From assembly GCA_945890485.1 (NCBI GenBank), contig CAMDCN010000001.1, forward strand, positions 558,001 to 622,000: DNA of 64,000 bases, given 5' to 3'. A program made the position numbers and the translations under genes. Positions 56,317 to 64,000 of this stretch are shown in pieces. The notes below the pieces were generated by a model. That model saw only the letters and a program-made list of their open reading frames with translations. It was not told the origin of the DNA and did not search any database. Source of the DNA: Candidatus Sulfopaludibacter sp. SbA3 (GTDB lineage Bacteria > Acidobacteriota > Terriglobia > Bryobacterales > Bryobacteraceae). Numbering within the stretch: position 1 is the stretch's first letter; the number at the start of each line of letters is the position of its first letter.

Positions 56317-56392
56317 GACCGCGACGGGCGGCGGCGAAGTGAAATCAAAAGAAACAGCTTCGCCGCCGCCGCGTCCGAAACAACATAGGATA

Positions 56393-58015
56393 ATGGCAAG
56401 AACTCGAAGCATGACGAAACTCCCGCAACTGCTGCTGATCGCCATCGCACCGCTCAGTGCGCAAACGGTCTGTGAGCCAACGCCGATGTACGCCATCTGC
56501 GATCTCATCTTCGACGCTCCAGCCGGCGCCACGCTCCAGGCGGAAGTTCGCTCGCCGCGACATCGTACGTTTCTCATGCCGGCATTCGCCTCCGCACCTG
56601 GCAAGTTAACCATCCGTGTCTCGCCAACCCTGGCCGGCCAGTGGGACTACCGGCTCACCTCCAGCCTACCCGCGTTCAATGGAAAAACCGGCAGCTTCGA
56701 AGCGCTCCCGAATGACCATCCCGGCTTCGTCGTGCCCGCAAATCTGCGGCATTGGGCCACCGGCGAGGACCGGCAGCCCCACCTCTGGCTCGGCGCCACC
56801 GGAGGGGATCCCGAACTGCTCTCGACCCAGAAATTCAATCATGTCCGCCTGGTACTCGATCAATCGAAGCTCGACGAAATCGAAAAGCAAATCCGCGCGT
56901 ACAACGAAAAGCGCATCACCGTCGACCTCGTTCTGAGCAACCTGCCCGCCATGTGGCAAGAGCGCGAAAAGGCCCTGAAATACCTCATCGGCCGCTTTTC
57001 AGCGTTCAATATCACATGGCAGCTCGAAGGCTCCCGCGCCGCGCTGAAAGAAACCGGCCTCGCCCTCAAGAAACTCGATCCCTATGGCCATCCTCGCACC
57101 GCCGTCACCAGCGACACCACCGCACCGCTGCTCGCCGACGGTTGGGCCAACTATATCGTCTACTCGACCGTCGACGACCAACTCGGCGCCATCGAACATC
57201 AGCTCTACACCGCCCCCAAAGTCAGCATCGCGCTCGAAGAACGTGCCGACCCGGAGGAGTTCCGCCGCCGACTTTGGAACATGTGGTTCAACGGGCAATA
57301 CCCCACCGTCAAACTCTCGAGCGAGAAAGGCGCCAAGTACGTCGCCGCTTGGCAGGAACTCTTCGCCCGCACGCGCCACTGGGACATCGAGCCCTATTTT
57401 GACGTGGACGGCGCCCGGTCCCTAGCCCTCGAAGGCGTCGAGTACATCGTTTACATCGAAAAGCCGTCCATCCCGGTCGAGGTCCTCGTCGAAAAGCACT
57501 CTTATGACGTGTACTGGTTCAATCCCTTAACCGGTGAATACACGAAAGAGAAGAAAGACTGGAAGGGCGAGAAGTTCGTGGCCCAGCCTCCCTCCACGGA
57601 TCACGATTGGGTGCTCCACTTGAGCCGTGATGGGCGCAAAGAGGGCATGCTCAAGAGCTACAAATTCGAGTCCCGCCTTCCCATGGTGCAGGAACTGGAA
57701 ATGCAGGACAAGATGTTGCCCTTCGAGATCGTCGAGCCCCAAGCCGACACCATCAGCCGTAAAAATCCGCCCGCCTTCTCCGTTAAAATCCGCCGTCCCA
57801 CGCGCGCAACCAGGACCATGATGTTCCTCTGGACCGGCGAGGTGGTCACTGGAGGCCAAGGCGCCCGCGTCCTCGGCACTGGCGAGAAAGGCCAGCTCAA
57901 AATCCCCCCCGATATGACCCTGCAATATCCCGCCGTGCTCAGCCTGCGCGTCGTTGGCATGAACGCCAACGGCAAAATTTACGCCGCTGACAAGGTCCTC
58001 CGGCTTACCGAATGA
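56393..58015 (+). CDS. Secreted DUF5060/apiosidase-like glycoside hydrolase-like protein
   Basis: 540 residues from MARTRSMTKLPQLLLIAIAP (signal peptide; an ATG six codons on is also possible). Residues about 25-105 form a beta sandwich (ATLQAEVRSPRHRTFLMPAF, AGQWDYRLTS) like DUF5060. A TIM-barrel-like region follows (HLWLGATGGDPELLSTQKFN, ITWQLEGSRAA). The usual catalytic Glu pair of apiosidase/DUF4038 members is not clearly placed, so activity is uncertain. The C-terminus is beta-rich. The TsaB gene overlaps the stop by 4 bases (ATGA). Confidence 0.65.
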   Translation: MARTRSMTKLPQLLLIAIAPLSAQTVCEPTPMYAICDLIFDAPAGATLQAEVRSPRHRTFLMPAFASAPGKLTIRVSPTLAGQWDYRLTSSLPAFNGKTGSFEALPNDHPGFVVPANLRHWATGEDRQPHLWLGATGGDPELLSTQKFNHVRLVLDQSKLDEIEKQIRAYNEKRITVDLVLSNLPAMWQEREKALKYLIGRFSAFNITWQLEGSRAALKETGLALKKLDPYGHPRTAVTSDTTAPLLADGWANYIVYSTVDDQLGAIEHQLYTAPKVSIALEERADPEEFRRRLWNMWFNGQYPTVKLSSEKGAKYVAAWQELFARTRHWDIEPYFDVDGARSLALEGVEYIVYIEKPSIPVEVLVEKHSYDVYWFNPLTGEYTKEKKDWKGEKFVAQPPSTDHDWVLHLSRDGRKEGMLKSYKFESRLPMVQELEMQDKMLPFEIVEPQADTISRKNPPAFSVKIRRPTRATRTMMFLWTGEVVTGGQGARVLGTGEKGQLKIPPDMTLQYPAVLSLRVVGMNANGKIYAADKVLRLTE

Positions 58016-58587
58016 TTCTCGCCATCGACGTGTGCAACGAGGTCGGCTCCATCGCTCTGCTCGACGGAACCGACCTGATCGAGGAACGCCGCCTCGAATC
58101 GCCGGACGGCTTCGGCCATATTCTGTTTGGCGCCATCGAGGATCTGTTGGCCGCTCACGGCGTCCCCGCCAGCGCCATCAACCTCTACGCCGTCGCCACC
58201 GGCCCCGGCTCATTCACCGGTGTCCGTGTCGGCGTTACAGCGGCCAAGGGCCTCGCTTTCGCCAGCGGCAAGCCCCTGGCCGGAGTTACCAATCTCGAAG
58301 CCCTGGCCAGCCTCGGAAGCGGCCCGCTGCGCGCTCCGATCTTCGATGCCCGTCGCGGCGACGTCTACGCCGCAGTTTACGACGACGCGCTCAACGTAAT
58401 CGTCCCACCCGCGGTGTGTCCCATCGAAAACTTCCCGCTCGGCGAAGCCACCCGTATTGACGCCGGTCCTCTGCTCGCCGCCGCCGTCGGCCGCATCGCG
58501 GCGCGGCGCGGCGGCGTTCACCCCGCCGCGGTCGATGCCACCTATGTCCGGCCCTCGGACGCTGAACTGCTCAAGACCTCTTCGTGA
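58012..58587 (+). CDS. tsaB: tRNA t6A biosynthesis protein TsaB
   Basis: 191 residues. The ASKHA-fold hallmarks are ILAIDVCNEVGSIALLDG at the start and ATGPGSFTGVRVGVTAAKGL near residue 63. With TsaD, TsaE and TsaC it forms N6-threonylcarbamoyladenosine on ANN-decoding tRNAs. A typical alternative gene partner (rimI) is not next to it. The start overlaps the preceding stop (ATGA). The last 46 bases overlap, antisense, the 3' end of the radical SAM gene. Confidence 0.93.
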   Translation: MILAIDVCNEVGSIALLDGTDLIEERRLESPDGFGHILFGAIEDLLAAHGVPASAINLYAVATGPGSFTGVRVGVTAAKGLAFASGKPLAGVTNLEALASLGSGPLRAPIFDARRGDVYAAVYDDALNVIVPPAVCPIENFPLGEATRIDAGPLLAAAVGRIAARRGGVHPAAVDATYVRPSDAELLKTSS

Positions 58588-59420
58588 AACCGGTCGCACC
58601 CGATGCAAAGGTTCTCATAGACCCGGCCGTCTTCGAGAATGATCCGGCTCTTCCGCCGGAACTCCTCGTCCGTCCATCCGTAGGTTAGCCCCATCTCCTG
58701 TGGCTGCCCGCGATTGATCGCAACATAAACCGGTTCGCGGCTCCGCCGCGCCAGTATCCTTTCGAGCGGCTCCGCATGCAGGTTGCCCACCGGCAACTTG
58801 GTCTTCAGGCAACACGGGTAGACGTTCCCGTTCGGCTCAATTGACACCTCGGAGCCCTCGCCACGCAGAAAATTCAGCCCGCCGCTCCACTGATTGCAGA
58901 AGTTGTCCGCCATCGTCGCCGTCGAAAGCCGATTCTTCCACGCCCGCCCTCGGGGCCACAGCTTGCCGATCCACTGCTCTGGCGTCGCGCCGAACATGCT
59001 GTAATCGCCGCCATCGGCTTCGAGCATCGCGATCACCTTTTCCCGTCGGTCCAACATCCCGGCATGAAAATCATCCATGCCGGAAACCGAGATCGTCGTC
59101 ACATGATGCGCGCGCAATTCGGCGATCAGCTTCGGCGTCAGCAGGTCGCCTGTTGTCTGCACGATGATCCGCGTCCGGTCGCCGTACTTGGCATAAAGCA
59201 GGTCGAGCACCGGATAGAGCACGGGCTCCCGGACCGCATCAAGCAGCACTTCCCCGCCGGCTAGTATCACCTTGCCCAGTTCATCGGGAAAGTTGGCGAT
59301 GATCGGCCCGGGATCGGTATGCTCCGGCATTCCCTGCGGATAGGGCCGGAAGCGGTCGTCGTAGCAGTGGTCGCAGGTCCGGTGGCAGAGCCACGTAATC
59401 ACGTAGTAGATCGAATCCAT
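58542..59420 (-). CDS. Radical SAM protein with SPASM-like Cys tail
   Basis: 292 residues. The N-terminal CxxxCxxC motif (CHRTCDHCYDD) near residues 12-19 binds the [4Fe-4S] cluster that cleaves SAM. Further cysteines lie at FCNQWSG, YPCCLKTK and CIGCDRF, which fit a SPASM or twitch auxiliary-cluster domain. A glycine-rich segment (VILAGGEVLLD) completes the core. Its ATG follows directly the stop of the selenoprotein gene (TAAATG), so the two form one transcription unit. The substrate is unknown; peptide modification or sulfatase maturation are typical roles for SPASM proteins. Confidence 0.85.
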   Translation of the reverse strand: MDSIYYVITWLCHRTCDHCYDDRFRPYPQGMPEHTDPGPIIANFPDELGKVILAGGEVLLDAVREPVLYPVLDLLYAKYGDRTRIIVQTTGDLLTPKLIAELRAHHVTTISVSGMDDFHAGMLDRREKVIAMLEADGGDYSMFGATPEQWIGKLWPRGRAWKNRLSTATMADNFCNQWSGGLNFLRGEGSEVSIEPNGNVYPCCLKTKLPVGNLHAEPLERILARRSREPVYVAINRGQPQEMGLTYGWTDEEFRRKSRIILEDGRVYENLCIGCDRFHEEVLSSSASEGRT

Positions 59421-60878
59421 TTACTTGCGCCGCAGCTCCGCCGGCGCCCGCTCCCGGTCATGACTTTCACTCACAAACTTCCACTCCACCGGCACTGTCT
59501 CTGGCGGATAGCAGATCCGGTCCGTACAACTTTGATACCGGAAGGTGCCCTTGATGACCAAGGTTTCGTCCTTCAACTGCGGAGGCAGCGTGATGTCGCG
59601 CGCTGCGCTGAAGACTCCGCTGTACTGCGAGTTCTTATCGGCCTTCGGCCACACCGGATCGGTTGCCTTCACCCCTTCGAGAGACCACGCCACCGGGATG
59701 AACTCCTCGGGAGCGCCGGGCGCGTAGACGTGCAGTCCCTTTCCTAACGCGCCTTCGAGCGTCAATCGGATTCGCTGTCCGCCGCGAACTACCGAAGCAC
59801 TCGCGCCGGTAGTCACTTTGATTCTTTTGCCGGTGAACTCGCCAAGCGGCGCTGCCTTTTGGCCAAACCGCCCGCTCAGCACGGACGAGATCGTGAACCG
59901 CTCGCGAAAATCCTCTTCGAAGTACTTCGCCGTCACCCGTCCCTGGCCGTCGAGCAGAAACACGCCGGGATGCGGAATACCCTGCATAAAATCGATGTTC
60001 ACCGCCTTGTTTCGCAACCCAAACGCATCGATTAACTTCGAGTCCGTATCCGACAAGAAGGGATAATCGAGCTTCTTCCGGGCAAAGAAGTAGCGCCAGA
60101 CCGCTTCACTGTCATAGCTCACAGCTAGCACATTCATTCCGAGTTTCCGCACATTCGCCACCTGTTGTCCCAACTCCACGAGTTGGGTTTTGCAGTACGG
60201 TCACCAATCCGCTGAGCGGACAAACAAGACGAACAGGCCCTTCGGTCCCGCCAGTTTCTTGAAGTCTGGAACCAGCGGACCCACGTTCTCGCCGATCACC
60301 GGCCCCGGCGGCAGCTCCGTCAACTGCAGATCTTTGAAGTGCACCGTGATGCCCGGCCCACTATGCACCTGCAGCGCGATGAAACCGGTTCTCTCAATGC
60401 CCGGTTCGGTCTCCCGATAGTCCACCGTTTTTTTGCCATCGAGTTCGAGGGTGATGCGGTCGCCGTCGGCGGTAATCACATACTTGTGCCACGCCTTCGT
60501 ATCGAGGTTCGGCACCGCGGTCTGCGCCAACACTTTTTTCCGCCGCGACTCATCGTAGAGAGCGCCCCAATACTTCTCGCCGATGTCGGCCTGATAGCCT
60601 TCCACCTCGTGCGAATCCGGCACCGGTTTTGAACGAAACTGCACTCCGCTATTGCCTACGCCATCAACAAGCTGAAACTGCAGCGCCAGCCGGAAATTGC
60701 CATAGTGCTTCTTCGTCCGCAGGAAATCGTTGTACTTCAATCCGGAGTGCTTTCCGGTGATCACGCCGCCCGACTCGCTCCAAAGTCCGGGCGTATCGAC
60801 GACGAAATCGGAAAATTTCAGTTCCGCGGCCAGAGCCAAGCCCGGAAGAAGAAGAGCCGGCAGCAGCAAGCGGGTCAT
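59421..60878 (-). CDS. Selenoprotein: DUF1080, Sec-peroxiredoxin-like and DsbD-N-like fusion
   Basis: 485 residues if the in-frame TGA at 60201-60203 is read as selenocysteine (U226 from the chosen start). The signal peptide is MTRLLLPALLLPGLALA; starts at 60887 or 60890 are also possible. Residues about 18-195 are a DUF1080/3-keto-disaccharide hydrolase-like lectin fold (VDGVGNSGVQFRSKPVPDS, VHSGPGITVHFKDL). Residues about 205-350 are a peroxiredoxin/thioredoxin fold with SADW-U-PYCKTQL, where homologues have CPYC. Residues about 365-475 resemble the DsbD N-terminal domain with YQSCTDRICYPP. A bacterial SECIS-like hairpin follows the TGA. It probably acts in periplasmic thiol or peroxide chemistry. 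Read conventionally, the gene is split into two frames that make no sense as separate proteins. Confidence 0.85.
60169..60187 (-). promoter_or_regulatory. Bacterial SECIS-like stem-loop after the Sec TGA
   Basis: Read on the mRNA, CCCAACUC, loop GUG, GAGUUGGG: a perfect 8-bp stem with a 3-nt apical loop whose first base is G. The loop begins 22 nt after the UGA. The published bacterial SECIS rules ask for an upper stem of at least 4 bp, a G in the first two loop bases and a loop 16-37 nt from UGA, and all are met. SelB would bind here to recruit Sec-tRNA. Confidence 0.8.
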
Positions 60879-60896
60879 ACTAGTCATCATACGCCC

Positions 60897-62654
60897 ATGG
60901 ACTTTGCCGCACACCTCAAGAGCGTCGTCGACATCGTAAAGGTGATCGGCGCCTACGTTCCGCTTAAAAAGCGCGGCGCGAACAGCTATATCGGGCTTTG
61001 TCCGTTCCATAGCGAAAAGTCTCCGTCGTTTAACGTCCACCCGACACAGCAGTTCTACAAGTGCTTCGGCTGCGGGGCCGGAGGCGACGTGATCAAGTTC
61101 GTCATGGAGTACGAAAAAGTTACGTTTCAGGAAGCGATCGCCTCGCTAGCGGAACAGTTTGGGGTTCCACTTCCCGAGAAGAAGCAGAGTTTCAACGATC
61201 CTGAGGCTCGACTTCGAACGGCGTTATTGGCGATGCACGATCTGGCCGCGAAGGTTTTTCAACAGAATCTCGCCGGCCCCTCCGGCGCGGACGCCCGGGC
61301 TTATCTCGAAAAGCGCCGGTTGCCCCTGAGCCGCGCGGCGGAGTTTGGCGTCGGGTTCAGCGAACGCAGCGGCCAGGGACTCGTCCGGGTTCTGAAAGCC
61401 CAAGGCTTTACGTCACAGGAGATTGAAGATTCGGGTCTGGCCGGCAAACGCGACGACGGTACGCTTTACGACAAGTTCCGAGGCCGATTGATGTTCCCGA
61501 TTCACAACGAAAGCGGGAAGATTATTGCATTCGGTGGCCGGGCGCTCTACGAAGGCGACGAACCCAAGTATTTGAATTCGCCAGGCACGGCCATCTATAC
61601 GAAAAGCTTGGTTCTGTACCACCTGCATCGCGCCAGAGAGGCGGCGCGGAAGACGGGCCGCCTCGTACTGGTGGAAGGTTACATGGACGTGATCGGCGCC
61701 TGGGCTGCGGGCGTGAAAGAGGCCGTCGCGCCCTGCGGCACTGCCTTGACGCAGCAACAGGTGAAGATCATGAGCAAGTACGCGCCACAGGTGGTCGTCA
61801 ACTTCGACCCCGACAACGCGGGCGCTAACGCGGCGGAAAAGTCGATTGCGATTCTACTTGAAGAGCACATGCGCATCCGCATCGCCACGCTCGAAGGCGG
61901 GCTTGACCCGGACGAGTACGTGGCGACCCACGGCGCTGAGGCATATGTGAATCGCATCGACAAAGCCCAGAACTATTTTCACTGGCTGGCGGGACGGGCT
62001 CAGCAGCGCTTTGACACGAAGACGGCCGAAGGCAAGGTGCAGGCGCTTGAGTTCCTGTTGCCGGCGATCCGTCGGGTGCAGGATCCGATGGAGCGCGCAT
62101 CGCTCGCCGCTGAATTGGCGAATCGGTTGGGCGTCGAGCAGGCGATGCTGCTCGACCAGTTCCGCCGCATGGCCGTGCAACGTTCCGAGCAGCGGATGGC
62201 CGCACCGACGCTGGATCTATCGCCGGCGGAAAAAGTTCTGCTGCAGTTGCTGCTGCAGTCGCCCGAGGTTTGTGAGTTCGCCGCGCCGGTCCTACTCGAC
62301 GACGAACGGCTGGAGCACTTCGCGCTGACGAGTTCGCAGGCGTGGCCGCTCTGGCAGAAGGTGCTTCGCGAGGCCGCCGAGGGCCCTTTGCAATTTTCTC
62401 AGCTTGAGGAGCAACTCAACCCGGCCGAGAAATCTCTAATGGCAACCTTGGTTTTCGCCGATAGAACAGCAGACGAACAAGAAGCGATGATGCAAGCAGC
62501 AGCCTGTCTGGCACAATTTGCCGCAGCGGGGCGGCGTGCGCGCATTAATGAGCTGAAGCGTCATATCCGAACGCTGGAGCAAGGCGGGTCGCTGGCTGAA
62601 GCTCTATCGATCACCGAGGAGTTATATGCGCTCGAACGGCAAGAGAGAGCCTGA
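60897..62654 (+). CDS. dnaG: DNA primase DnaG
   Basis: 585 residues from [20 protein letters not shown]; the start is very close to the divergent selenoprotein start. The N-terminal zinc-binding CHC2 domain has Cys35, His38, Cys56 and Cys59 ([12 protein letters not shown] and [10 protein letters not shown]). The TOPRIM domain holds VEGYMDVI (Glu260) and NFDPDNAG (Asp304). A C-terminal helicase-binding region (from about 450) is diverged. It makes RNA primers at the replication fork and pairs with DnaB. The following rpoD fits the macromolecular-synthesis operon order, without rpsU. Confidence 0.96.

Positions 62655-62671: not shown

Positions 62672-64000
<1,329 letters not shown>

Follow-up and report, generated by a model that had tools for sequence, protein, structure and literature searches.

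Does an in-frame TGA in the stretch of Candidatus Sulfopaludibacter sp. SbA3 DNA analysed here (64,000 nucleotides, the window) end a gene, or does it encode selenocysteine? The minus-strand frame from 60878 to 59424 contains one internal TGA, at codon 226, and no other stop, and reads ...RSADW-TGA-PYCKTQLVELG... around that codon. The ATG at 60878 was taken as the start (ATG 60887 and ATG 60890 are also possible). Without recoding the frame breaks into two entries of the ORF list, and a standard-code gene caller would split the selenoprotein at the UGA. The original prediction placed a selenocysteine at residue 226, at the first Cys of a C-P-Y-C motif; the frame bears out its coordinates and numbering, and Cys-containing homologues align exactly over the TGA codon. 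The features of the locus are listed in Table 1.

Table 1. Coordinates of the predicted selenoprotein gene, its parts and its downstream neighbour in the window.
Feature	Position	Strand	Basis or detail
Predicted selenoprotein gene, 485 codons including Sec	59421..60878	-	frame reading; stop TAA 59423-59421
In-frame TGA, predicted selenocysteine codon (U226)	60201..60203	-	frame and homologue alignment
PF06439 3-keto-disaccharide-hydrolase-like domain, residues 35-186	60321..60776	-	Pfam 97.9 bits vs 26.8; folds 4jqt, 3u1x, CBM66
AhpC-TSA / Prx-TlpA-like thioredoxin fold with UxxC, residues 214-317	59928..60239	-	PF00578 76 bits vs cut-off 26
Cys229, second residue of UxxC	60192..60194	-	invariant in aligned rows
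DsbD_N-like domain, residues 366-461	59496..59783	-	Pfam 32.2 bits vs 25; folds 1l6p, 3pfu, 5nhi
Cys451-x4-Cys456 pair of DsbD_N-like domain	59511..59528	-	spacing as in the genome's own DsbD
SECIS hairpin	60169..60187	-	5' arm 60187-60180, loop GUG 60179-60177, 3' arm 60176-60169
SECIS core pairs	60185/60171 to 60181/60175	-	plus alternative loop-closing pair C60180-G60177
Radical SAM/SPASM gene	58542..59420	-	starts on the base right after the selenoprotein stop (TAA-ATG)

The codon at the aligned site was read in 191 homologous loci: 133 have TGA, 43 have TGC, 15 have TGT and none has any other codon. These loci comprise 151 of 152 from the named relatives and the order plus 40 of 40 from a phylum sample; they were drawn from the better matches listed and are partly dependent, as some genomes are present in two collections and some sequences are identical. 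The 151 named and order loci that cover the site have 98 TGA, 40 TGC and 13 TGT codons, and the 98 TGA rows represent 88 distinct 60-nt sequences. Cys rows were favoured by the search, because the queries had Cys at the site and one search pattern was ADWCPYCK. Among the named relatives, found in part with this Cys-containing pattern, 8 of 55 have TGA and 47 have Cys. The eight TGA relatives (57-90% identity) are all titled Acidobacteria or groups within, such as Bryobacteraceae, and more distant named relatives include other phyla. Within the order, matches at E <= 1e-15 were found in 158 of 257 genomes, many of them to the N-terminal PF06439 domain only (hereafter the sugar domain), and every site-spanning row among the matches listed was read. 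Only 46 of 396 genomes in the phylum sample have a match at E <= 1e-20. A single TGA is present in 43 of 53 rows among the phylum matches listed (the window's own included); the 40 of these 53 rows that were fetched have 35 TGA, 3 TGC and 2 TGT, all at the same aligned codon, a count that leaves out seven TGA rows and three other site-spanning rows. The 35 TGA rows, among the matches listed, place the TGA form in at least 15 acidobacterial family groups besides the window's own.

A search for the sel genes, which the original prediction had proposed as a check, found all of them in the genome that contains the window (7.1 Mb, 97% complete). Model searches gave 455.9 bits for selA, 378.8 for selB and 354.9 for selD, all above curated cut-offs, and tRNA-Sec (selC) scored 70.6 bits, above its cut-off, with a UCA anticodon. 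Across the order, tRNA-Sec was found in 78 of the 86 genomes in which the TGA form was read; a strict-filter scan did not find it in the other eight (58-99% complete). Three of five Cys-only genomes have no tRNA-Sec match and two have tRNA-Sec. Comparison of the TGA genomes with the 171 other genomes of the order, which are mostly unclassed, gave a Fisher p of 3e-5 with kinship ignored.

The same genome contains other genes with an in-frame TGA. Its selD (L025, contig 9) is likely a selenoprotein gene itself, with an in-frame TGA (AAG-U-ASK) and a hairpin downstream. Two of its 21 AhpC-TSA matches contain a TGA. A second selenoprotein candidate is an AhpC-type peroxiredoxin (L197, contig 8, TGA at 1384-1382, minus strand) with TGG-TGA in a TxxU motif, followed by a hairpin, GGAUUCCA-GGC-UGGAAUCC, that has a z of only -1.2. 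A degenerate copy adjoins L197; it has CGC (Arg) in place of the Sec codon, and a TAG follows shortly after.

In the window, a hairpin starts 13 nt downstream of the TGA. With numbering from the T of TGA as position 0, core pairs 18-32, 19-31, 20-30, 21-29 and 22-28 hold in 87, 88, 87, 88 and 88 of the 88 distinct TGA rows, respectively, and the loop-closing pair 23-26 around GU holds in 83. Pair 20-30 is GC in 48 rows, AT in 35, GT in 4 and AC in 1, while pair 23-26 is CG in 47, GC in 34, GT in 2 and CC in 5. The paired changes are mostly synonymous (CAG...CTG versus CAA...TTG; CTC-GTG versus CTG-GTC). When codons were permuted among TGA rows that have the same amino acid, the observed pairing was reached in 0 of 300 trials; pair 20-30 held in at most 74 of 88 permuted rows (87 observed) and pair 23-26 in at most 57 (83 observed). 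In the Cys rows these two pairs are at the codon null, and the rows are slightly above it for the whole stem (reached by 3 of 300 permutations) and the outer pairs (31 of 300). A second count, over 79 distinct rows, showed pairing in 97.3% of cells and changes on both sides in 75. Its paired cells, double-changed cells and covariation score were each reached by 0 of 500 shuffles, and weaker measures were reached by a few (7 of 500 for pairs with a double change, 30 of 500 for further pair types). Slid versions of the hairpin pair in only 6.7-51.9% of cells in these rows, and RNAalifold predicted the same stem from the alignment.

Shared ancestry was taken into account through a 136-protein tree, inferred after masking of the SECIS codons and the Sec site. 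On its starred branches, the loop pair changed in concert in about 12 of 13 independent contrasts (0 opposite, median p 0.0005); for the stem pair the figure was about 8 of 11 (0 opposite, median p 0.008). The hairpin energy (nt 16-36) is -7.5 kcal/mol or lower in 82 of 88 TGA rows versus 2 of 48 Cys rows, and Val234, whose codon supplies the loop GU, is present in 88 of 88 versus 10 of 48. All 35 TGA rows of the phylum set have a QLVEL or QLVQL stretch. The hairpin is conserved in TGA genes by compensatory synonymous changes and is mostly absent from Cys genes. Synonymous codon choice thus follows the SECIS hairpin inside a coding region, and the Cys homologues serve as a natural control.

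The bacterial SECIS model, as given in the available text of PMC13188914, has a loop of 3-9 nt with G in the first two positions, a spacing of 16-37 nt and an energy of -7.5 or lower; the legend of Fig. 2 in that paper gives N1-G[G/U]-N2 with N1 and N2 paired. The window hairpin, with a GUG (or CGUGG) loop and a spacing of 20-21 nt, agrees with this model. Folded as a single sequence, it is modestly better than shuffles (z of -1.2 to -2.05). A search of the region with Rfam gave no SECIS match, its sole match being at chance level on the other strand. A model built from the SECIS hairpins (R1) had a meaningful E-value in the window's genome at the U226 site only, and missed the hairpins of selD and of the second peroxiredoxin. 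Because the U226 site is its only meaningful match there, R1 did not serve to find further selenoproteins. We regard it as almost certain that U226 is a selenocysteine, inserted from Sec-tRNA(UCA) that SelB, bound to the SECIS hairpin 13 nt past the UGA, would bring to that codon.

Other readings of the UGA were weighed against selenocysteine. It could be a plain stop, either in a pseudogene or through a one-base sequencing or assembly error in a Cys codon: TGA is a single base from TGC and TGT, and Cys is the residue in 47 of the 55 named relatives. We give this almost no weight; the original prediction had held that a chance stop or sequencing error would seldom fall on this codon. Of the 191 loci, drawn from many assemblies, 133 have TGA at the aligned position, the frames are open on both sides of it, and the hairpin goes with TGA. 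A sequencing error is very unlikely because the identical TGA is present in other assemblies, and the conservation of TGA in other genomes in practice refutes both error and pseudogene. A negligible chance likewise attaches to decoding of UGA as Trp or Cys, through near-cognate readthrough or a changed code, in favour of which there is nothing beyond the open frame. Against such decoding, the genome has the Sec machinery, all 58 non-TGA loci that were read encode Cys at the aligned position, and three neighbouring genes terminate at TGA (56339-58015, 58012-58587 and dnaG, which ends at 62654). An altered code was rejected, as TGA is the ordinary stop of these three genes in a genome with Sec machinery.

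More weight, though still little, goes to a regulated stop that would yield a short product (signal and sugar domain) at low selenium and the full selenoprotein at high selenium, which we consider improbable. The UGA follows a complete PF06439 domain, and therefore termination would still yield a whole domain. However, 15 loci (L104-L119) have only 71-149 codons open before the UGA, Pfam shows no extra domain in one of these (L107), and two loci of the genus (L031 and L032) lack the sugar domain. Because of these short upstream frames and sugar-domain-free loci, a useful short product is not the general reason for the UGA.

The distribution of Sec and Cys on the 136-protein tree, which is a quick tree with several long branches and no inferred root, requires six changes, three of them forced by starred branches, and some Cys rows fall inside Sec groups. 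One Cys case is in the window's own genus (L103, genome G086): here the codon is TGT, 5 of the 7 hairpin pairs are retained (-6.8 kcal/mol), and tRNA-Sec is still present in the genome. Natural Sec/Cys pairs are thus available, one of them inside the same genus, and with them it can be tested what makes selenocysteine worth its cost to the cell in an envelope redox protein. One homologue (L055) comes from a metagenome bin titled Bifidobacterium breve and groups with Acidobacteria in the tree; this bin is most likely mislabelled or mixed.

The start of the protein, MTRLLLPALLLPGLALAA, looks like a signal peptide by eye, and the selenoprotein is predicted to be exported. Besides the domains in Table 1, Pfam matched Redoxin (PF08534) at 49.6 bits, and the combination of AhpC-TSA and DsbD_N recurs in four scanned relatives from other genera and families. 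AlphaFold models with Cys replacing Sec had a mean pLDDT of 88.3 (93.3 for the two-domain core). Foldseek matches were to DUF1080 proteins and CBM66 for the N-terminal domain, and to PrxQ/AhpC, ResA and nDsbD for the two-domain core. Across 52 aligned rows D224, W225, Sec/Cys226 and C229 are invariant, and conservation is at least 90% for C451 and C456; the latter two are invariant in the 47 rows left after removal of five single-domain rows. The genome's one DsbD_TM match is a full DsbD of 603 aa, with ACNDKLC in its N domain where the selenoprotein has SCTDRIC.

Alignment to solved structures with phmmer placed Sec226 over the first Cys of the ResA CxxC and over the Thr of the Prx2 TxxC, and the peroxidatic Cys of Prx2 aligned with C229. 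Because of these positions, the Sec is read as a thioredoxin/TlpA-type nucleophile and not as a canonical peroxidatic residue. The original prediction had called U226 the peroxidatic or redox residue; the redox role, as a thioredoxin-type nucleophile, stands, and the canonical peroxidatic position does not. The SECIS hairpin, the DsbD_N domain and the distribution among acidobacteria are additions to that prediction. The expected chemistry would have Sec226 as the nucleophile and C229 as its resolving partner. A canonical peroxiredoxin was rejected, as the Sec is at the Thr position of TxxC/TxxU and C229 is at the Cys. The peroxiredoxin motif PxxxTxxC/U with a reactive last residue, as described in the available text of PMC13188914, is absent from the window protein.

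The likeliest function of the protein is that of a selenol oxidoreductase or peroxidase in the periplasm, which would be re-reduced via its own DsbD-like domain. Its substrate could be a peroxide or a protein disulfide, with no strong choice between them. A narrower assignment, to a TlpA/ResA-type thiol-disulfide reductase or isomerase that acts on cytochrome c or envelope disulfides and is not a peroxidase, falls a little below an even chance. The position of UxxC at the ResA CxxC, the ranking of ResA with the top matches in profile and fold searches, and the fused DsbD_N domain, whose known partners are thiol-disulfide reductases of the TlpA/ResA type, all speak for a reductase, but the PrxQ/BCP and AhpC models match about equally well. 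For the broader oxidoreductase-or-peroxidase assignment, we propose a relay in the envelope, at roughly even confidence. Sec226 and Cys229 would form the UxxC site of the Prx/TlpA-like thioredoxin fold, and the Sec226 selenolate would attack a peroxide or protein disulfide. Resolution by Cys229 would give a selenenylsulfide, which Cys451/Cys456 of the attached DsbD_N-like domain could reduce before being recharged by the membrane DsbD encoded in the genome. Both this electron route and the role of the sugar domain are proposed from domain identity.

The sugar domain varies within the genus. The two loci without it (L031 and L032) are 88-90% identical over the core, and in three others (L033, L034 and L102) what stands in its place is shorter or degenerate. 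Judging from these loci, the N-terminal domain is dispensable. Outside the genus, the order search gave no row spanning both sugar domain and core among the matches listed. Separate relatives of the sugar domain in other genomes have 55-68% identity, whereas the next-best relative in the window's own genome has 34%, which suits a fusion of the sugar domain within the genus. The domain possibly only binds sugar, because CBM66 modules have the same fold. As a DUF1080-like domain in part of the genus only, it may tie the protein to carbohydrate.

The radical SAM/SPASM gene downstream adjoins the selenoprotein gene in L028-L035, L091-L096, L100 and L101 (82-91% identical) and also in L107 and L108 from another genus (about 50%), that is, in two lineages in all. 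The remaining loci retrieved together with 1.5-3 kb of flanking sequence gave no match to it at E <= 1e-4, a result that excludes L120-L186 (sequences without flanks). In L029 (4459-4592) and L091 (2959-3092) the match has a gap from query residue 21 to 44, and its two pieces lie 70 bases apart, which is not a multiple of three; these two loci look like one sequence in two collections. Upstream, dnaG is divergent, with its ATG at 60897 separated by 18 bases (60879-60896) from the selenoprotein ATG. After dnaG, an ORF that starts at 62672 looks, by eye, like an RpoD-type sigma factor. Among the best 10 of 11 plasmid records with a match, none has 80% coverage of the protein.

Our overall interpretation, which we hold with about equal belief and doubt, is of a selenoprotein family scattered over Acidobacteriota in which a UxxC thioredoxin fold carries its own DsbD-like reductase domain. 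Such a selenoenzyme would work in the periplasm as a self-contained unit that draws electrons from the membrane DsbD, and in part of the genus it would also be fused to a carbohydrate-directed domain. Selection would long have kept the Sec and the SECIS. Occasionally Sec would have given way to Cys, and no tRNA-Sec was detected in the genomes of at least one such group. The family may be one reason that the Sec system is kept.

The 2005 Sargasso Sea paper, in the text available (PMC1088965), already treats Prx-like UxxC selenoproteins as known, and a 2026 inventory of 119 selenoprotein families has a Prx-like UxxC entry in Table 1 of its available text (PMC13188914). The available text of one study gives Acidobacteria three selenoprotein families and four selenoproteins (PMC1794560); their names are absent from that text, so an earlier sighting is possible. 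The acidobacterium Occallatibacter riparius has three known selenoproteins, whose names are likewise absent from the text consulted (PMC12013277). A literature search that covered main texts, with a minority of subscription papers, found no account of the selenoprotein in acidobacteria. No NCBIfam model matched the window protein at its cut-off; the SelL-related redox protein model (NF040769) gave 36.9 bits against a cut-off of 120. A family combining Prx-like and DsbD_N domains is unnamed in Table 1 of PMC13188914, where the nearest entries are the rhodanese/DsbD fusion-like and Redoxin UxxC families. That table assigns each family a single domain id, so its Prx-like entry could conceal a member.

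The window protein is like the Prx-like thiol:disulfide oxidoreductase selenoproteins (PF00578) in its AhpC-TSA fold and in having Sec first in UxxC (U226-P-Y-C229). It differs from the Prx-like entry, compared by its description in Table 1 of PMC13188914, in its DsbD_N and PF06439 parts, which are unnamed there. The Redoxin family selenoprotein (PF08534) of the same table, also compared by description, shares UxxC and an overlapping Pfam family. TsoB (NF045694), a rhodanese/DsbD fusion-like selenoprotein, is also DsbD-linked by name, but it has two Sec in UxxxxU and a rhodanese domain according to that table, and its model did not match the window protein at E <= 0.001. The Sec-peroxiredoxin (TxxU), of which L197 in the window's own genome is a likely member, also belongs to PF00578, but its Sec is last in TxxU whereas that of the window protein is at the Thr position. 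In the literature searched, part of it available only as partial text, Prx-like UxxC selenoproteins are known, and the architecture with DsbD_N (and PF06439) was not found. The locus adds a strongly supported selenoprotein architecture, present in many acidobacterial families. Its C-terminal domain resembles the DsbD N-terminal domain in its Pfam score above cut-off, its matched folds and its conserved Cys pair; in contrast to DsbD, the membrane part is missing and the N-type domain is joined to a thioredoxin-fold selenoprotein.
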